A stretch of DNA of 64,000 bases from a virus. Location: positions 1-64,000 of the IMG/VR virus record IMGVR_UViG_3300027754_005655; one strand, given 5' to 3'. Below, piece by piece: positions 15,160 to 56,497 of this stretch (position 1 is the stretch's first letter; the number at the start of each line of letters is the position of its first letter). The notes below the pieces were generated by a model that saw only the letters and a list, made by a program, of their open reading frames with translations, was not told where the DNA came from and made no database searches. The position numbers and the translations under genes are program-made.

Positions 15160-15941
15160 TAGATTTTTCTATAATCGTCACAATAAAAAATAGAAAAGAA
15201 CATTTTTTAAAAACGTTTTCTTCTTTGGTTACCCAACAACAACCATGGTCATACGAGGTTAATTTTATCGATTATGGTTCTCAGGATGGCTTTGGCGAAT
15301 CTTTAAAAAAAGAGACGATAAGATACACGGATCTTTTTTCAGATTCGCTTAAAGCGATTAATAGAATCTTTATAGAAGACGATCTTAAGTTCAATAGCGG
15401 CAAAGCAAAAAACATAGGTTCTTATTTTTCTAGTGGGAATTTTGTTTCATTCTCCGACGTTGATGTATTTCTTGGTATGGATTATCATCGACATTGGCTT
15501 CAGCTGTTGATGTATAATGACAAACACTTTTTTTCTTCTCGTGTACAAGAAACTACAGAAAGATGTTCTAGACGATTAACTTCAAAAACCAATTATGGAA
15601 ATATGATAGTTGCTAAATCTAGCTTTAATGTTGTGGGTGGTTTCGATGAAAATAATCCGACGTGGGGCGGCGATGATGATGATATCGTTCATAGATTAAA
15701 GTTATATGGATTAAGAGAAATTAATCCTCATGATGTTTATGAATCACATCACACTAGCATTATTCATGATGACGAGCTTAGAACTAAATTTCTTGAATCA
15801 TCGGAAAAAGATTCTATAATATCAAAACAAAAGCTAATTGCTATTTATAATAATACAAGTTTTATTAATCCCAATTTTTTGTTTTTTTACAATGATATAA
15901 AAAGTTTAGTTAAAGTTGAAAAAATATATGAACGTACCTGA
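15156..15941 (+). CDS. GT2/galactosyltransferase-C-type glycosyltransferase
   Basis: A 261-residue GT-A enzyme. It begins FSIIVTIKNRKEHFLKTF. NSGKAKNIGSYFSSGN near 87 and SFSDVDVF near 104 give the DXD. GGFDENNPTWGGDDDDIVHR (about 166-185) matches the C-terminal module of beta-galactosyl and polypeptide GalNAc transferases (GlcT7C type). The catalytic acidic residues look intact. It is coupled to the NeuB-like gene by an ATGA overlap. Confidence 0.8.
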   Translation: MIDFSIIVTIKNRKEHFLKTFSSLVTQQQPWSYEVNFIDYGSQDGFGESLKKETIRYTDLFSDSLKAINRIFIEDDLKFNSGKAKNIGSYFSSGNFVSFSDVDVFLGMDYHRHWLQLLMYNDKHFFSSRVQETTERCSRRLTSKTNYGNMIVAKSSFNVVGGFDENNPTWGGDDDDIVHRLKLYGLREINPHDVYESHHTSIIHDDELRTKFLESSEKDSIISKQKLIAIYNNTSFINPNFLFFYNDIKSLVKVEKIYERT

Positions 15942-16548
15942 TGTTTCAATAATCGTTACTAACTATAACTATGCGCCTTATCTTCAGCGTTGTTTAAGAA
16001 GCATTTTAAATCAAGAAAGTATTAATCATGAAATCATTGTTATCGATGATTGTTCTACAGATAATTCTTTAGAGACACTAAACGTTTTTAAAAATGACGT
16101 CAAAATTCTTTCGACACAAACAAATTCTGGCGTAGCAGCAGCCGCTAACATCGGTATAAAAGCAGCCCGCGGACAATTTATAATAAGAGTTGATGCAGAT
16201 GACTACGTGTCTTCTAACATGTGCTATTTCATGAAAACATATTTAGAATCAAATCATGATGCATTCTGTGTGTCATGCGATTATCATATAGTCGATAATC
16301 ACGAAAACTCCGTACAAAGAAAATACGCAGAAAAAGATCCTATCTCATGCGGTATTATGTATAGAAAAGATCTTTTCTTACAACTTGGCGGATACAACGA
16401 CGCTATGAGACATAGAGAAGAAGAAGAACTTCGAAAAAGATTAGGCGAATATTATCAAATACATCACCTAAAAATCCCATTCTATCGTTATAGAATGCAC
16501 AATAGTAACAAGACAAAAACGTCAGAATATAGTGAATGCAAAATTTAA
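15928..16548 (+). CDS. GT2 family glycosyltransferase
   Basis: A 206-residue GT2 enzyme. VSIIVTNYNYAPYLQRCLRS (6-25), IVIDDCSTDNSLE near 37 and FIIRVDADDYV near 90 give a complete GT-A nucleotide-binding core with an intact DXD (DAD). ATG 15928 is chosen because it is close before the conserved start and an in-frame TTG at 15916 is weaker. It overlaps the previous gene by 14 bases. It has no C-terminal membrane segments. Confidence 0.85.
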   Translation: MNVPDVSIIVTNYNYAPYLQRCLRSILNQESINHEIIVIDDCSTDNSLETLNVFKNDVKILSTQTNSGVAAAANIGIKAARGQFIIRVDADDYVSSNMCYFMKTYLESNHDAFCVSCDYHIVDNHENSVQRKYAEKDPISCGIMYRKDLFLQLGGYNDAMRHREEEELRKRLGEYYQIHHLKIPFYRYRMHNSNKTKTSEYSECKI

Positions 16549-16567
16549 TATTAAAAATCGAGGTTTT

Positions 16568-17323
16568 ATGAGAGTCGGTATTCTTGGATATGGAGAGATA
16601 GGACAAGCTATTCATAAGTTGTATAGCAATTCATGCAATAACTTGAATACGCAAATATTCATTAAAGATTTAAATAGAAATGATGAATTTCAAAATTTAG
16701 ATGTTTTAAACGTGTCTATTCCATATAATGATTCTTTCAATTTTATAGATGTTGTAAGCACCATTGCGATTGAATCAAATGCAAAAATGTTGATTGTTCA
16801 CTCGACGATACAGGTCGGCACTATTAAAAAATTAAAAGAAATATTGCCGAATACAAAAATTGCGCATTCTCCGTGCAGAGGAATTCATCCAAATCTTTAT
16901 GAAGGATTATTAACATTTCCAAAATTCGTTGGAGCAACATCAACGTTAGACGCTGACGAAGTTGCGCAACATTTGCATTTAATTAATATTAAAACTTTTA
17001 TTTGCAAAAATTCTGAAACAACAGAATTAGCTAAATTATTAGATACAAGTTATTATGGAATCTGTATCGCGTTTCATGGAGAAGCTTTTAAAATATGCGA
17101 AAAAGCTAATGCAGACTTTGAACAAGCCATGACTATATACAACACATCATACAACGATGGATATACAAAATTAGGAAAACAAAACGTTGTAAGACCAGTT
17201 CTTACTTCCCCCGTTGACGGAATCGGTGGCCACTGCGTTGTAGAAAATGCAGAATTGTTATTAAAACAATTTAACTCGACTGCATTAAATTTGATTGTTG
17301 AATATAAAAAGGAAAACAAATGA
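16568..17323 (+). CDS. Nucleotide-sugar dehydrogenase-like protein, WecC-type motif, shortened
   Basis: A 251-residue protein starting RVGILGYGEIGQAIH (NAD-binding GxGxxG). VHSTIQVGTIKKLKE near 79 follows the UDP-sugar dehydrogenase pattern, and GIGGHCVVENAELL near 217 corresponds to the catalytic-cysteine motif GGHC of UDP-ManNAc dehydrogenases. The C-terminal nucleotide-sugar-binding domain of full-length enzymes (over 400 residues) is missing. ATG 16568 is favoured by GAGG at 16560-16563. It may oxidise a sugar or serve as a partner for the next gene. Confidence 0.7.
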   Translation: MRVGILGYGEIGQAIHKLYSNSCNNLNTQIFIKDLNRNDEFQNLDVLNVSIPYNDSFNFIDVVSTIAIESNAKMLIVHSTIQVGTIKKLKEILPNTKIAHSPCRGIHPNLYEGLLTFPKFVGATSTLDADEVAQHLHLINIKTFICKNSETTELAKLLDTSYYGICIAFHGEAFKICEKANADFEQAMTIYNTSYNDGYTKLGKQNVVRPVLTSPVDGIGGHCVVENAELLLKQFNSTALNLIVEYKKENK

Positions 17324-18261
17324 CACCAATTGCGATTGCAATTATCGGACAAGGTTTTGTAGGAGGGTCTTTAGCTACTATTTTTTCCGAACGAGGTTTT
17401 GATGTTTATGCTTATGATAAAGCAGGAAAGTATGCAAAAGGATCTCTACCAAGCCATGGAGATCCAGTTGCAAGTTACCCAGGATCCATTGCAGAATTAA
17501 TTGGGGATAATGAGAATGGTGGAACACCGGGGTTTTCTAATGTTTATTTTGTGTGTCTTCCAACACCAATGAATGAAGATGGATCAGCCGATCTTTCTAT
17601 CGTAGAAGGTGCATTAAAAGAATTGGCAGCTGTTCCTGGTGAACGAATTGCAGTAGTTAAATCAACTGTTCCACCAGGATCGACTGATCGCTGGAATAAA
17701 GAGTTTTTAGAATCTGGACTTCATGTAATTTTTAATCCAGAATTTCTAACAGAAGCAAATGCGTTAGATGATATGCGAAACCAAAGTCGTATCATTCTTG
17801 GAGGTCCACGCCCGTGGATTAATACCGTTAAGCAAGTTTTTCAAACAGCATTTCCAAAAGTTCCTCTTATTAAAACATCATCTACTACTGCTGAAATGAT
17901 AAAATACGTTACTAATAACTTTTTAACTGTAAAGGTTATGTTCGCAAATGAAATGTATCAAATTTGCAATGCTTTAGATAAAGCCGGCGCCAATGTAGAC
18001 TATGATAAAGTAATTGAATATGCAAAATATGACAAGAGATTAGGCGATAGTCATTGGGCAGTGCCAGGTCCAGATGGTCATCTTGGAGTAGGTGGAAGCT
18101 GCTTTTGTAAAGACATCAATGCAATGACATATGTTGCTGATCAATTGAATATTGACACGCCTGTGTTGGACGGCGCGTGGAAAAAGAACTTAGAAGTCCG
18201 TCCTGAAAGAGACTGGGAATTGCTTATAGGCCGTGCTGTCTCCACTAAAAATAACAAGTAA
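17320..18261 (+). CDS. UDP-glucose/GDP-mannose dehydrogenase family protein, shortened
   Basis: A 313-residue NAD-dependent nucleotide-sugar dehydrogenase. IAIIGQGFVGGSLATIF (5-21) binds NAD, VKSTVPPGSTDRW near 109 and FNPEFLTEANALDD near 135 are signature motifs, and LGVGGSCFCKDINAM near 254 carries the catalytic Cys. The sequence stops soon after this domain, so most of the usual C-terminal UDP-binding domain is absent. It overlaps the preceding related gene by four bases, suggesting the pair works together, for instance to make a uronic acid. Confidence 0.8.
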   Translation: MTPIAIAIIGQGFVGGSLATIFSERGFDVYAYDKAGKYAKGSLPSHGDPVASYPGSIAELIGDNENGGTPGFSNVYFVCLPTPMNEDGSADLSIVEGALKELAAVPGERIAVVKSTVPPGSTDRWNKEFLESGLHVIFNPEFLTEANALDDMRNQSRIILGGPRPWINTVKQVFQTAFPKVPLIKTSSTTAEMIKYVTNNFLTVKVMFANEMYQICNALDKAGANVDYDKVIEYAKYDKRLGDSHWAVPGPDGHLGVGGSCFCKDINAMTYVADQLNIDTPVLDGAWKKNLEVRPERDWELLIGRAVSTKNNK

Positions 18262-18297
18262 TGAACTAACACATGCTTGCGTAATATAATTGTTTTA

Positions 18298-19119
18298 ATG
18301 GAAGAAGATGTTAAGTTTGAGATTCTGCCTACAGGAAAACAGCATGTTTCTTTTTCAGAAGTAAAGCTTTGGAAAGAATGTTCTTATCATCACAATTTAG
18401 TTCACATCAAAAAGTTAAGTCTTTTTAAGCCTTCACCGGCGCTTGATTTTGGAACTGCTATTCACGCTTCATGTGAACACTATCTTTTAACTCGCGAAAT
18501 GAAACCTGAAATTGCTTTCGACAGCATGGAAAAAGCATGGGCAACAAATTCGACGCCTGAAAATCCAGACTTTACCCAAGCTTCATTAGCAAAATCAAAA
18601 TTAGAAGCCGCAACAATTCTTTCTGAACTCCCAAAATTTCTTGATGAAACATTTCCTGAATGGGAAACAATTTCTGCTGAACATCAGCTATACGAACCGA
18701 TCAATAATCATCCTCATGCCTTTAAGGGGTTTATCGACGGCGTGATTAAAGCGAAAGGAAAACGTGGTGAAACAATCTATTGGGTTATCGATTGGAAATC
18801 GACCGCTCGTGGATGGTATCGAGATAAACGTTCAGATCCAATGGTAGCAGCGCAGTTAGCATTATATAAAAACTATTGGTGCCAAAAAAATCCCGAGATT
18901 CCATTTAAGGATGTTCGTTGCGGTTTCGTTCTTCTTAAGAAGTCTGCGAAACAAGGAGAGCATTGCGAGCTATTTTCAGTTCCATTAGGCGAAGTACCAA
19001 TTAATCGTTCTCTTAAGGTCGTTAGTAACATGATAACTGCTGTAAAAAAAGGAATTGCTTTAAAAAATAGAGACGCTTGCACTTGGTGTGAATATAAAGA
19101 TACTGAACACTGTATCTAA
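18298..19119 (+). CDS. PD-(D/E)XK nuclease with candidate Fe-S cysteines
   Basis: A 273-residue RecB/Cas4-like nuclease. HVSFSEVKLWKECSYHHNL near 16-34 is the N-terminal part, FGTAIHASCEHYL near 51 the conserved GxxxH helix, and the core is DGVIKAKG...WVIDWKST near 142-168 with a following QLALYK. One cysteine (KECSYH) plus three at the C-terminus (ACTWCEYKDTEHC) match the four-cysteine iron-sulfur staple of AddB and Cas4 proteins. It probably cuts or resects DNA. It lies unexpectedly among sugar genes. ATG 18298 is preferred to TTG 18277. Confidence 0.8.
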   Translation: MEEDVKFEILPTGKQHVSFSEVKLWKECSYHHNLVHIKKLSLFKPSPALDFGTAIHASCEHYLLTREMKPEIAFDSMEKAWATNSTPENPDFTQASLAKSKLEAATILSELPKFLDETFPEWETISAEHQLYEPINNHPHAFKGFIDGVIKAKGKRGETIYWVIDWKSTARGWYRDKRSDPMVAAQLALYKNYWCQKNPEIPFKDVRCGFVLLKKSAKQGEHCELFSVPLGEVPINRSLKVVSNMITAVKKGIALKNRDACTWCEYKDTEHCI

Positions 19120-19154
19120 AAAGATTACAAGACTCAAAAAATAGTTACGATAGG

Positions 19155-20405
19155 ATGGTAATGAGCGACAAGAAAACCATATTAATGTTAAGCGACCACC
19201 CACTCTCGACCTCGGGCGTGGGTACACAAGCCCGATGGTTGATTCATGGATTGATTAATACAGGAAAATATAGCTTCAAGTGTTTTGGCGGTGCAGTAAA
19301 ACATGATGACTATAATTTAAACGTAGTCAATAAAGATTTTATTATTAAACCAACCGACGGCTTTGGAGATAGAAACTTATTAAGACAAACGTTGGTTCAA
19401 CTTCGTCCAGATGCGTTAATGCTTTTTACTGACCCACGATTCTTTATTTGGGTTTGGGAAATGGCAGATGAGATTAAACAAATTTGTCCAATAACTTATT
19501 GGCATCTTTGGGACAATTATCCTTGGCCAAGTTTCAATGAAGTTCTTTATGAGTCGACGGATTTAATCAATTGTATTAATTGGCCAACTTATGAAATGGT
19601 TAAAGAACGATTTCCTGAAAAAGCGAATTACGTACCTCATGCAGTACCAAAAGAAGTCTATAAGCCACTTCCTGAAGCTAGTGTTTTAGCATTTAAGAAA
19701 AAGCTTTTAGGAGAGAATAGAGCTGATCACTTTGTAGCTGGTTATGTAAGTCGTAATGCAAGACGAAAGATGCCAGGCGATATTTTAATTTCTTGGAAGA
19801 TGTTTTTAGAAAAGCTGGAAGAAAAACATGGACATCGTAAAGCTACGATGGTTATGCATACTGAACCGTTAGATCCAGAAGGACCAAACCTATATCACGT
19901 TATAGACATGTTAAACATACAAAATGATGTTATTTTTTCCAAAGATAGAACGCCGTTTGAAGATATGGCATTGTTGTATAACTCTTTCGATACTATTGTT
20001 AATCGTAGTTGTAATGAAGGATTCGGTTTACCTACACTAGAATCAATGATGTGTGGTAAACCTATCATAGCAATTAAAACGGGCGGTCTAACCAGACAAG
20101 TTGAAGACTTAGAGACAGGCGAACAATTCGGAATAGGATTAGATCCTGAAGTAAAATCATTGGTTGGGAATCAAATGGTTCCATATATCTACGAAGATTT
20201 TATTTCGCATGAAACTATGGCCAATGCGTTTATGAAGATGTACGAGTTAGGTCCTGAAGGACGTAAGGAATTAGGATCTAAGGCGATGGCACACGCTCAT
20301 AAAAATTACAATATAGAAAAAACAGTTGAAACTTGGGATAAAACATTGTCAAATACAATAAACACATGGAAAAACGATAAGTTATGGTCTCACAAGGAGA
20401 TTTGA
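19155..20405 (+). CDS. GT4 family glycosyltransferase
   Basis: A 416-residue GT-B enzyme of usual GT4 length. It begins with ILMLSDHPLSTSGVGTQARW, the acceptor-side loop. The C-terminal half contains GYVSRNARRKMPGDIL near 197, RSCNEGFGLPTLESMMCGKP near 280-299 with the conserved ExxxxxxxE-type donor motif, and AIKTGGLTRQVED. The start could be ATG 19155 or ATG 19161; an AGG lies just upstream. It follows the nuclease gene by 35 bases. Confidence 0.88.
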   Translation: MVMSDKKTILMLSDHPLSTSGVGTQARWLIHGLINTGKYSFKCFGGAVKHDDYNLNVVNKDFIIKPTDGFGDRNLLRQTLVQLRPDALMLFTDPRFFIWVWEMADEIKQICPITYWHLWDNYPWPSFNEVLYESTDLINCINWPTYEMVKERFPEKANYVPHAVPKEVYKPLPEASVLAFKKKLLGENRADHFVAGYVSRNARRKMPGDILISWKMFLEKLEEKHGHRKATMVMHTEPLDPEGPNLYHVIDMLNIQNDVIFSKDRTPFEDMALLYNSFDTIVNRSCNEGFGLPTLESMMCGKPIIAIKTGGLTRQVEDLETGEQFGIGLDPEVKSLVGNQMVPYIYEDFISHETMANAFMKMYELGPEGRKELGSKAMAHAHKNYNIEKTVETWDKTLSNTINTWKNDKLWSHKEI

Positions 20406-20406
20406 A

Positions 20407-21573
20407 ATGAAAAAAGTTGTTGTAAGAGGTCCCGCTTTAACTCAATCAGGATACGGTGTTCATTGTAGGCAAGTTGCTGCGTGGCTTTTATCCAAATCGA
20501 ATGTCGACGTAAAGTTTCAAGCGCTACCTTGGGGAAACACTCCTTGGATATTAGATAAAAATGTCCAAAGAGGTTTAATAGATAAGATTACAAAGAATTC
20601 TGTAGAGCTGTCTGTGCCCGACGATAAGCGGTATGATGTTTCTTTTCAGCTACAGCTTCCTAACGAATGGGACCGGTCTATAGCAAGGTTTAATGTTGGT
20701 ATGACAGCCGCAGTCGAAACTGATACGTGTAATCCAGCATGGGCCGAAGCATGCAATAAAATGAACTTAATCATAGTTCCATCGGCTCATGCAGCAAATT
20801 GTTTAAAAAATGGAGGAACAATTAATGTTCCAATTGTCGTAGTTCCCGAATCTTTTTGCGATGAAATATTAGAAGAAACCAATGATCAATTGCCAGATTT
20901 TTCTACGAACTTTAATTTCTTAATATTTGGTCAAATCACTGGCGACAATTCGCTTAATGATCGTAAAAATATCATACTTACGATTAAGTGGCTTTGCGAA
21001 GTTTTTAAGAACGATAAAGATGTTGGTATAGTAATAAAAACAAATCTTGGTCGTAATACGGCGATAGATAAACGTCGTACAGAACAATTGATAAATACTG
21101 TGGTTAAACAATGTAGACATGGAGATTTTCCTAAAGTACATTTATTGCATGGTGAGATGTCAAATTCTGAAGTTGCTACGCTTTATAAACATAAGCAAAT
21201 AAAGGCACTCGTATCTTTGACCCGAGGCGAAGGTTATGGTTTGCCGATTCTTGAAGCCGCAGCCAGCGGTTTACCTGTAATAGCGACAGGATGGTCTGGT
21301 CACACTGAGTTCCTTAAACATGGAAAGTATATTTCGATATCGTATGATCTAAAGCAAATACATGCATCTAGGGTTGATAATCAAATATTCGTTCCTCATG
21401 CGAAATGGGCAGAAGTAATTGAGGAAGATGTTAAGAAAAAATTAATAAAGTTTCGAAACAACCCTACGATTCCTTGCGAATGGGCAGTAGAATTAGCTTC
21501 TGTTATAAAACAGAAGTATTCTTCTGAGGCTATATTCAAAACTTATGATGAGGTGACTAAAGAAATAATATGA
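20407..21573 (+). CDS. GT4 family glycosyltransferase
   Basis: A 388-residue GT-B enzyme. VVVRGPALTQSGYGVHCRQV at the N-terminus is the acceptor-side glycine loop, shared in style with the upstream enzyme. TRGEGYGLPILEAAASGLPV near 274-293 is the donor-site motif of GT4, followed by ATGWSGHTEFLKHG. AAGGAG lies shortly before the ATG and supports the start. It is the last clear sugar gene of the run and overlaps the following membrane-protein gene by four bases. Confidence 0.88.
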   Translation: MKKVVVRGPALTQSGYGVHCRQVAAWLLSKSNVDVKFQALPWGNTPWILDKNVQRGLIDKITKNSVELSVPDDKRYDVSFQLQLPNEWDRSIARFNVGMTAAVETDTCNPAWAEACNKMNLIIVPSAHAANCLKNGGTINVPIVVVPESFCDEILEETNDQLPDFSTNFNFLIFGQITGDNSLNDRKNIILTIKWLCEVFKNDKDVGIVIKTNLGRNTAIDKRRTEQLINTVVKQCRHGDFPKVHLLHGEMSNSEVATLYKHKQIKALVSLTRGEGYGLPILEAAASGLPVIATGWSGHTEFLKHGKYISISYDLKQIHASRVDNQIFVPHAKWAEVIEEDVKKKLIKFRNNPTIPCEWAVELASVIKQKYSSEAIFKTYDEVTKEII

Positions 21574-21895: not shown

Positions 21896-22723
21896 ATGAT
21901 AAGAAAAAACAAAAAAGAACAAGATAAGAAACTCGATGAAAAATCTTGTTCTGTAAACATTGTAGACGTTGTAGATGCTGTAGATGCTGTAGTCGTAGTG
22001 CAAGAAAAAGAGCAAAAAGAAAAAATAAAAAAAGTAGATCCTGCAAAGCTATATTTTAATGCAGATACACAACGTGCCATCGTCGAATTTCAATCTACCG
22101 AAGATCGTGTCGTTCGTGAACGACTTTACGTATTGGAGATAATGCCAGCTTTTCAAAAGTTGGTAGAAAATCTTATTAATATTCATAAATTTGCAGGATT
22201 ACACGACTCGTATGATGATCTAAGAAATGATTGTATTAATTTTTTATTTGAAACTATTTGTAAGTTTGACGACTCCCGTGGAACAAATGCGTTTTCTTAT
22301 TTTAACGTCGTAGCTAAAAACTGGTTGATAATAAAGTCTAAACAGAAATCTCAAAAATCTAAAAAGAATGTTAGCCTAGACGATCTTAGTCTTCTTTCGG
22401 CTCATGAAAAAAATATACTTGAAGAACATAACGTTTTGCCTTCGCAAGATTTGTTTTTAGATAGTTTAATATCATCTAAATCAATAGGCGTCTTACTATG
22501 CGATATTAGGGAAAAGTTGCGAACAGAAAATGAATTAACGTGCATTAATTCTATCATAACGATATTTCAAAATATAGAAGATATAGATTTATTAAATAAA
22601 AATGCAATATTGTTATATATGAGAGAATTGTCTGGGCTTAGTCCAAAACAATTGACAACGACAATGCAAGTTATAAAAAAACATTATAAAAAAATTAAAA
22701 ACGAACAAAGAAATGAGTTGTGA
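21896..22723 (+). CDS. gp55-like late-transcription sigma factor
   Basis: A 275-residue protein whose middle part resembles the core of T4 gp55-type sigma factors. KFDDSRGTNAFSYFNVVAKN near 125-144 corresponds to sigma region 2, the part that binds polymerase clamp and -10 DNA, and DDLSLLS follows. The N-terminal 60 residues are a lysine- and valine-rich low-complexity extension. Such factors direct late gene transcription, fitting its place just ahead of structural genes. ATG 21896 lacks a ribosome-binding site. A strongly served ATG at 21853 in another frame encodes a basic peptide running into the same A-rich stretch, so the true start is uncertain. Confidence 0.75.
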   Translation: MIRKNKKEQDKKLDEKSCSVNIVDVVDAVDAVVVVQEKEQKEKIKKVDPAKLYFNADTQRAIVEFQSTEDRVVRERLYVLEIMPAFQKLVENLINIHKFAGLHDSYDDLRNDCINFLFETICKFDDSRGTNAFSYFNVVAKNWLIIKSKQKSQKSKKNVSLDDLSLLSAHEKNILEEHNVLPSQDLFLDSLISSKSIGVLLCDIREKLRTENELTCINSIITIFQNIEDIDLLNKNAILLYMRELSGLSPKQLTTTMQVIKKHYKKIKNEQRNEL

Positions 22724-54318: not shown

Positions 54319-54834
54319 TCATTTTAGGTTTTTTAACATAGAAAGTTTAAGCGCTGAAGAATCAATATCGTCCTCAACGCTAGTCGTTTCTCCTAAGCCG
54401 AAAGTTGAAGTTTCGATATTAAGCGTTCCTATAGAAGTGACGAATGTACTTTCATCTATTTTTGGATTTTTGTTTTTTTTTAATGTTTCATCTACACTTT
54501 GTTGCACTGGCAAAATTTCTAATATTTTTTTCGATAATGAATGAACGCCTCCCATGTCATCGACCATAATTAATTCTCCTGTATTTTCGCTTAGAAGCGC
54601 TGGGGAATCAAGTACAACTATTCCTTCTTGCGGAGAAGAAATTGCTACATTAACGATTTTTTTGAACTCTGCTTCAGAAGGAGGAGAAACACCCATACTA
54701 TCACATTTTGTTATTAACGTCGAGTGAGTGACAATTCCATAATCATCTACGAATCGCTTTAGTGTTGTTTTCCGCTTTTTTAATAGATCGACTAATTTAA
54801 TTTGCGGTAGTCGTTTTATTTTAAAATTTGCCAT
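54319..54834 (-). CDS. Protein of unknown function
   Basis: A 171-residue protein. The first 90 residues (LPQIKLVDLLKKRKTTLKRF, STLITKCDSMGVSPPSEAEF) look like a small helical domain with a predicted helix-turn-helix-like arrangement. The rest is acidic and Ser/Thr-rich (DEVDSSALKL-like ending). It is ten bases downstream of the sigma-4-like gene on the same strand. Its relation to transcription is possible but unproven. Confidence 0.55.
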   Translation of the reverse strand: MANFKIKRLPQIKLVDLLKKRKTTLKRFVDDYGIVTHSTLITKCDSMGVSPPSEAEFKKIVNVAISSPQEGIVVLDSPALLSENTGELIMVDDMGGVHSLSKKILEILPVQQSVDETLKKNKNPKIDESTFVTSIGTLNIETSTFGLGETTSVEDDIDSSALKLSMLKNLK

Positions 54835-54843
54835 ATACTTGTC

Positions 54844-55149
54844 TTAATAAGTAATTTCTTCTTTTCTAGTTGCTTCTAAATTGTGCAAAAGATCAGAAAT
54901 TACATTTTGAAATTGTGGCGAAGTTGCAGCTAACTTAACCTTGTCAGGTGATAACTTCATATCCCATTCTTTATCGAAACCTTCAACAAACTTTGTCATC
55001 ACGCGTAGGATATAGTTTCTTGCTGAGGAGTGATTCATTACGAATCCGATTTCTGACATGATCTCAGCAATCTCACGATAATTTATGCCTTCCTCGTCGA
55101 GAACAGTCGCATAACTTTTAGTAACTTTTGATTCCTTCTTAGATGTCAT
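54844..55149 (-). CDS. Small helix-turn-helix protein, sigma region 4.2-like
   Basis: A 101-residue protein. YREIAEIMSEIGFVMNHSSA (about 24-43) and the following RNYILRVMTKFVEGF form a helix-turn-helix of the kind found in sigma-70 region 4.2, which contacts -35 DNA and the polymerase beta flap. It lies two genes downstream of a sigma factor that lacks this region. The middle loop is two or three residues longer than usual. It may supply region 4 in trans, like T4 gp33 does for gp55, but it could also be an ordinary regulator. Confidence 0.6.
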   Translation of the reverse strand: MTSKKESKVTKSYATVLDEEGINYREIAEIMSEIGFVMNHSSARNYILRVMTKFVEGFDKEWDMKLSPDKVKLAATSPQFQNVISDLLHNLEATRKEEITY

Positions 55150-55369
55150 TTTCTCTTCTCAGATTTGCTTTAATTGAATATTTTCTATTTTGAATATCTA
55201 ATAAACGATTACTTAAAATGTTTTGAACGTTAGATTCTTCGCTCTTTTGTGTGAGAGATTCCTGCCTTCGATCTAAACCTAAATTCGCCATTAATAACGT
55301 TTTTCGATAAATCATTATTAACAATAGAACGTTTATCGATCCTAAAACGATAGGCGCAAATTGCAACAT
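55139..55369 (-). CDS. Small single-pass membrane protein
   Basis: A 76-residue protein. Residues about 4-21 (FAPIVLGSINVLLLIMIY) form one transmembrane helix, and the rest is polar and helical, likely cytoplasmic. It starts with a TAATG overlap at the end of the sigma gene and overlaps the next gene by 11 bases. The three genes are therefore co-translated. No family is recognised. Confidence 0.6.
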   Translation of the reverse strand: MLQFAPIVLGSINVLLLIMIYRKTLLMANLGLDRRQESLTQKSEESNVQNILSNRLLDIQNRKYSIKANLRRENDI

Positions 55370-56157
55370 TACATTGACCCTTTTCCTGACGCAATTAGTT
55401 TTGCTTCTTCGTCGGTCACCTGATACGATTCGGAAGAAATGTCATCATATAAACCAAATCGCAATCGCAAAATAGCTGCTTCTTTTGTAGACAATTCGCA
55501 CATGACTCGTTTAACAATTTGCATCATTTCCTTTTTCGCCAAAGACTCAAAAGGATTGACTATAGGATTCATATCCTCTAATCTATCGCCTATTGTGGCA
55601 GAACCATCGTTGCTAATAGGTTGTTGCAACGAAACTACACTTCTACTCGATTGCACTGTAGCTTTAACGACTGTTTCTGAAACAGAAATCATTTCAGCTA
55701 ATTCTTCAGAAGATGGTCCATATCCATTCATCTCCTTGAATGAATCAGTCGCAAGTAACATCTTTTTCTGCGCAGAAATAGCGTGAGCAGGCAATCTAAT
55801 GATTTTTTTTCTCGTTAAAACATATTGACTAATTGCCTGTTTGATCCACCAAGTCGCATAGGTTGAAAAACGAAATCCTCTTTGCCAATCGAATCGATCG
55901 ATTGCCTTAAGTAAACCTAGATTTCCTTCTTGAATAAGATCTTCAAGCGGAATATCTTTGCTTTTTTGCTTTTTGGCAACGTAAACGACAAGTCTAAGAT
56001 TGGATTGCGCTAGCTTTTGGCGAGCTTTAATAGAATCATTTCCGCCTTTTTCATAAACCTGAAATAATTCAATTAGTTTATTATGTTCAAGTTGTGGATA
56101 TAAACGTAATGAATTTAAATAACTCGAAATCACGGTTTTAGAAGAGTTTTCTAACAT
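55369..56157 (-). CDS. RpoD-type sigma factor lacking region 4.2
   Basis: A 262-residue sigma-70 family protein. SNLRLVVYVAKKQKSKDIPL near 69 (region 2.1), EDLIQEGNLGLLKAIDRFDW near 90 (2.2), FRFSTYATWWIKQAISQYVL near 113 (2.3-2.4) and IRLPAHAISAQKKMLL near 137 (3.0) are strongly conserved. GYGPSSEELAEMISVSETVV continues region 3. Region 4.1 (LSTKEAAILRLRFGLYDD) is present, but the product ends about 25 residues later with no helix-turn-helix. It could direct polymerase to -10-only promoters or pair with the small HTH protein downstream. Confidence 0.9.
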   Translation of the reverse strand: MLENSSKTVISSYLNSLRLYPQLEHNKLIELFQVYEKGGNDSIKARQKLAQSNLRLVVYVAKKQKSKDIPLEDLIQEGNLGLLKAIDRFDWQRGFRFSTYATWWIKQAISQYVLTRKKIIRLPAHAISAQKKMLLATDSFKEMNGYGPSSEELAEMISVSETVVKATVQSSRSVVSLQQPISNDGSATIGDRLEDMNPIVNPFESLAKKEMMQIVKRVMCELSTKEAAILRLRFGLYDDISSESYQVTDEEAKLIASGKGSM

Positions 56158-56158
56158 A

Positions 56159-56497
56159 TCAGCTTAACTTTTCGAGACCACCAGATTCTTCAATTTTTGT
56201 GACAGTGTTGAGATCTACATCTCCTGATGAATCTCGTCCACTAGACCTTTGCGTAAACTCCATATGCGCATGCTCTCTATCATTTCGAATGATATCCTCA
56301 CGGCGAAGGTATGCAATTTCGACCTCCCAAAGGTATGGATCTCTGCCCGCCCCAGAAAGTCGATTCCTTTCACCTTCAAGACGATCTATTCTATCGTGAA
56401 TTGCTTCATCAGATGTGTATGCAATGTCGTCCATGCTATAGATTTCAGGAGCCTCATTCGCGAAATCCTTATTAACGTTTTTGTTCTTTTTAAACAT
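56159..56497 (-). CDS. Protein of unknown function
   Basis: A 112-residue, acidic and charged protein without motif, signal or membrane segment. DRIDRLEGERNRLSGAGRDP is likely a helix. Its stop codon lies one base before the sigma-factor ATG on the same strand, so it is the first gene of the sigma operon. It might be a regulator or chaperone of that factor, but only position suggests this. Confidence 0.5.
   Translation of the reverse strand: MFKKNKNVNKDFANEAPEIYSMDDIAYTSDEAIHDRIDRLEGERNRLSGAGRDPYLWEVEIAYLRREDIIRNDREHAHMEFTQRSSGRDSSGDVDLNTVTKIEESGGLEKLS

Follow-up and report, generated by a model that had tools for sequence, protein, structure and literature searches.

A truncated RpoD-like sigma factor and a separate region 4.2 homologue in uncultured giant bacterial viruses: a probable sigma factor split inside region 4

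Results

The window analyzed here is a stretch of 64,000 nucleotides, positions 1 to 64,000 of the 66-kb IMG/VR virus record IMGVR_UViG_3300027754_005655. It contains a cassette in the order UP, SIG, (TM), HTH and D4, and a gp55-like gene that lies apart from it. The features are:

56159 to 56497, minus strand: UP, a conserved 112-residue protein upstream of SIG (cassette comparison)
55369 to 56157, minus strand: SIG, a truncated RpoD-like sigma factor of 262 residues ending after region 4.1 (Pfam regions 2 and 3; PHROG_351 positions 484-691; IMG/VR relatives)
55807 to 56013, minus strand: sigma region 2 of SIG (PF04542, E 4.2e-22)
55567 to 55752, minus strand: sigma region 3 of SIG (PF04539, residues 136-197)
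55450 to 55527, minus strand: region 4.1 of SIG, up to the motif RLRFGL (profile alignment with full-length sigma factors)
55372 to 55449, minus strand: 26-residue tail replacing region 4.2 of SIG (alignments; in relatives usually Y.IT.EE......G)
55139 to 55369, minus strand: TM, a putative membrane protein of 76 residues that overlaps SIG and HTH and begins with a hydrophobic stretch at its N-terminus (ORF, neighborhood comparison)
54844 to 55149, minus strand: HTH, a 101-residue protein linked to SIG at all loci, a possible accessory factor (linkage, profiles, fold model)
54319 to 54834, minus strand: D4, a conserved 171-residue protein downstream of HTH (cassette comparison)
21896 to 22723, plus strand: a gp55-like late sigma factor of 275 residues (PHROG_234, E 2.3e-4; E 6.5e-7 in a genome search)

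The same window carries a cluster of glycosyltransferase-like and sugar-nucleotide genes at 15916-21573 and also at 2143-2880.

The initial annotation had described SIG as a sigma factor that reaches region 4.1 and stops short of region 4.2, and profile searches bear this out. Pfam matches Sigma70_r2 (PF04542) at E 5.9e-20 (4.2e-22 in another profile search) and Sigma70_r3 (PF04539) at E 2.5e-9, detects no full Sigma70_r4 in the chain, and the helix-turn-helix of region 4.2 is absent. On the sigma factor profile PHROG_351, SIG covers positions 484-691. The chain ends 26 residues past RLRFGL, where a complete RpoD used for comparison continues for 48. Relatives of SIG were found in at least 120 IMG/VR stretches; most match only positions 1-22 of Sigma70_r4, which correspond to region 4.1, and this region is strongly conserved across the family alignment. 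The stop falls 12-36 residues past RLRFGL in 80 distinct C-termini (26-28 residues in 65 of them), and most relatives share the tail type Y.IT.EE......G. Because 80 distinct sequences end alike, a frameshift or sequencing error was ruled out as the cause, and the truncation is a genuine, conserved property of a family from uncultured giant bacterial viruses. Scanning 1.5 kb downstream of SIG genes in six frames with a region 4.2 profile built on S4 (described below) gave no match, and the 12 best region-4 matches in that search were SIG's own region 4.1.

Two observations concern other phage records. The sigma factor of Salmonella phage Munch (L001) gives no Pfam region 4 match; its C-terminus resembles a helix-turn-helix whose turn carries a long insertion, and is possibly another deviant region 4. 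Three loci filed as phages (L276, L277 and L278) appear to be ordinary host rpoD/sigA genes with host neighbors.

The open reading frames agree with the overlapping operon initially described, in which the putative membrane protein (55139-55369) lies between SIG and the 101-residue protein (54844-55149). It had been proposed that this HTH protein supplies the region 4.2 that SIG lacks. The association of the two genes, which the initial annotation had suggested looking for in related phages, holds at every locus examined: the HTH gene lies downstream of a truncated SIG in 80 of 80 relatives in a sigma-first search, and SIG is present at every locus recovered by an HTH-first search. TM is missing or unrecognized in a subgroup of relatives, which keep HTH. 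The HTH family is very conserved (consensus NYREIADMMTEIGFKMNHSSARNYVLRVMRKFA), was not found in cellular genomes, and its AlphaFold model (pLDDT 81) has a confident short helix followed by a long one; faint sigma-like matches exist, to SigR (E 0.3) and to the three-member phrog_1190 (best E 0.007). The tight linkage, the two helices and these faint matches would all suit a region 4.2. However, none of 50 HTH family members matches Pfam region 4, hhalign gives a probability of 0.4% against region 4 of full-length sigma factors and 0.5% against S4, Foldseek matches the model to no sigma structure in the PDB, and a clear region 4.2 exists elsewhere, in S4. On these HMM, profile-profile and fold tests the HTH protein was rejected as region 4.2, a role we now regard as very unlikely. 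Since the tests were negative, we treat it as a linked protein, possibly a regulator or accessory subunit. The UP and D4 families always flank the SIG-HTH pair; neither gave a match as region 4 or as gp33.

The protein that fits region 4.2 is S4, a separate small protein of about 95 residues (range roughly 80-110) encoded in six of ten large relatives. Its layout is four invariant cysteines followed by TLQEIGxIxGLTRMRICQIEK. S4 matches Sigma70_r4 above the Pfam cut-off over its helix-turn-helix, from position 12 or 20 to 49 or 50 (E 1e-9 to 1e-10), and hhalign places it on full-length sigma factors with 96-97% probability (E 1e-9 to 1e-11), the 35 aligned residues being 43% identical. In profile-profile alignment it falls on E. 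coli σ70 residues 568-602, with numbering taken from a Klebsiella ORF after subtracting its 19 extra N-terminal residues. The predicted structure reached moderate quality (pLDDT 76, pTM 0.51); all nine of its PDB matches are to sigma region 4, with Foldseek E values of 0.9 or more that are weak because the match is short. By homology, then, S4 is a sigma region 4.2 encoded apart from the SIG gene. It covers positions 691-725 of PHROG_351, so that the two halves meet where SIG (484-691) stops, and SIG together with S4 from relatives jointly covers the sigma regions on that profile. The claim that an RpoD-like sigma factor is split thus gains support, and the partner first named for it is probably the wrong one. 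The N-terminal four-cysteine module is perhaps metal-binding, as predicted from the motif.

At least 166 IMG/VR stretches encode S4, of which 80 were kept. A close S4 sequence gave no tblastn match in isolate phages, and a divergent one matched five records, all weakly (E 0.02-0.07); the match that carries an annotation is an rpoD. In the reference jumbo phages checked, region 4 lies within one ORF or has no match. Four S4-carrying contigs in GTDB (L285-L288) are binned in MAGs of Flavobacteriales, Halobacteriovorax, Methylococcaceae and Legionellales, and at least one of them is clearly phage-like, with SIG and HTH; because such a contig sits in a bacterial MAG, the hosts that these bins suggest should not be relied on. 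Upstream of S4, at about 60-100 bases, a TTGTACA element (palindromic TGTACA) followed by TATACC or TAAAAT recurs in many loci (for example L163, L170, L178, L198 and L215), with TTATAC and TTGAAC as variants in other groups; it is perhaps an S4 promoter or operator.

The viral genomes compared are metagenomic records and possibly incomplete. Each of the ten IMG/VR records of at least 187 kb that encode S4 also has SIG and the neighboring HTH gene, and SIG is truncated wherever its end was read, including in the deepest branches. A 306-kb contig in a Methylococcaceae MAG likewise has truncated SIG, HTH and S4. Where both are on one contig, about 39-270 kb separate SIG from S4. No S4 is present in the 66-kb source record, in the SIG-bearing records shorter than 120 kb that were searched or in G003 (216 kb), which counts against the pairing, although the SIG-bearing records that lack it are probably fragments; a 142-kb contig from the same sample as G003 carries S4, so both contigs may derive from a single genome. 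The source phage itself presumably has S4, encoded outside its 66-kb record. Also counting against the pairing, SIG occurs in only two of 12 S4-bearing records of 90-187 kb, perhaps owing to fragmentation. SIG and S4 identities are correlated across 15 genomes (Mantel p 0.0005), a correlation that is partly shared phage ancestry, which alone could produce it. A single gene matching sigma region 2 was found in 12 of 15 records, which leaves these phages with no obvious full-length alternative. One relative (G007, 133008-133580; L255) has, next to the usual truncated SIG, another sigma gene in which part of a region 4 C-terminus is retained.

An S4 gene that is unlinked to SIG and bears an invariant four-cysteine motif could also point to a mimic of sigma region 4 with a modulating effect on the host's sigma factor or promoters, or to a stand-alone regulator, rather than a sigma subunit; other small cysteine proteins, such as WhiB, do bind sigma region 4. 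The break point of S4, which complements the truncated SIG, and the consistent co-occurrence of the two genes speak against such a role, and we consider it very unlikely.

A gp55-like gene was also noted initially, and we confirm it at 21896-22723 (PHROG_234, E 2.3e-4). Such genes are present in 12 of 12 records checked, with weak to moderate E values to PHROG_234. S4 co-occurs with the gp55-like gene as consistently as with SIG, which counts against a specific SIG-S4 pairing. S4 might therefore be the partner of the gp55-like late factor and a functional analogue of T4 gp33, with SIG working without region 4.2, for example at extended −10 promoters. The regular presence of gp55-like genes, the lack of region 4 in gp55 and the failure to recognize a gp33 homologue in the cassette are all compatible with this arrangement. 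Against it, S4 starts on the profile exactly where SIG stops, and region 4.1 of SIG is strongly conserved, which is not expected of a factor that makes no use of region 4; we therefore consider it rather unlikely and retain the pairing of S4 with SIG as the better reading.

We compared promoter motifs upstream of genes (regions from loci L301-L310 and L316-L360). The invariant TRMRICQIEK of S4 corresponds to TRERIRQIEA in σ70, with Met for E585 and Cys for R588 (E. coli σ70 numbering), and these changes in the recognition helix predict a −35 element other than TTGACA. Over the genomes of four large relatives, the regions upstream of genes show no enrichment of TTGACA, and we found no −35 motif there attributable to SIG-S4. 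In G001, G006, G025 and G027, by contrast, the density of ATA[CT]TTA upstream of genes is about ten times its genome-wide value, with 6-31 sense matches in the four genomes versus 0.7-4.8 in shuffles; this motif may be the late promoter that the gp55-like factor recognizes.

Discussion

We consider it likely that SIG is an RpoD-like sigma factor split inside region 4 that acts in trans with S4. The sequences show that the truncation is conserved, that S4 has the complementary homology, that the two genes co-occur and that their divergence is correlated; beyond these, we infer a physical association of SIG with S4, a position at the β flap and regulation. SIG would bind host RNA polymerase and supply core binding, −10 recognition, region 3 and region 4.1, with region 4.1 placed at the β flap. 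S4 would dock in trans at region 4.1 and the flap, rebuilding region 4 and contributing the helix-turn-helix (region 4.2) that reads the −35 element. The result would be a phage-specific holoenzyme whose −35 specificity could be added or withheld through control of S4.

A more speculative extension, which we think doubtful, is a three-part promoter-recognition apparatus in which the HTH protein, always adjacent to SIG, joins truncated SIG and the S4 that acts in trans. S4, with its cysteines, would then serve as an interchangeable −35 module that might respond to metal or redox state. If such a machine exists, it would let the phage direct host RNA polymerase from one class of promoters to another.

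In primary sigma factors, the two halves of region 4 normally form a single domain and together bind the β flap and read the −35 element. A region 4 consistently cut in two would allow a direct test of whether flap binding is separable from −35 recognition, and the placement of the half that reads DNA on an unlinked gene would make it testable whether −35 specificity can come in trans.

The T4 system, which the initial annotation had invoked, resembles the present one in combining a phage sigma factor that lacks region 4.2 with a small separate protein, and the comparison is apt for the gp55-like gene found here. It does not extend to the partners: SIG, unlike gp55, is RpoD-like with regions 2, 3 and 4.1, and the homology of S4 is to region 4.2, with none to gp33. 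By profile, S4 and the HTH protein are both unlike gp33, and no gp33 homologue was detected among S4, HTH, UP and D4 (hhalign at most 0.2%, with a single gp33 sequence as target). In phage SPO1, gp33 and gp34 jointly act as the late sigma factor, a functional parallel to the proposed SIG-S4 pair.

The literature searched, which leaves out most subscription journals, yielded no phage sigma factor split inside region 4, and a break at this point on unlinked genes appears undescribed there. Two-subunit sigma factors as such are already known, but not with the SIG/S4 break point. SigO and RsoA (YvrI and YvrHa) of Bacillus subtilis jointly constitute a sigma factor, encoded in one operon of a cellular genome and split between σ2 and σ4 (PMC8103513, PMC10141391). 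SIG and S4, judged by their profile coverage, are likewise two genes that together span the sigma regions. They differ in that the break lies inside region 4 of an RpoD-like factor, the phage genes are unlinked (about 39-270 kb apart, as noted), and the small part, S4, has a cysteine module.

Group 2 jumbo phages, in the part of the survey by Iyer et al. (2021, PMC7824862) considered here, have both a minimal single-HTH sigma and a more complete RpoD-like sigma. That part of the survey describes them as two types and not as complementary halves, and S4 itself was not found in the isolate phages that we searched. As far as this portion of the survey goes, the arrangement of SIG and S4 suggests a functional pairing for its single-HTH and more complete sigma types.
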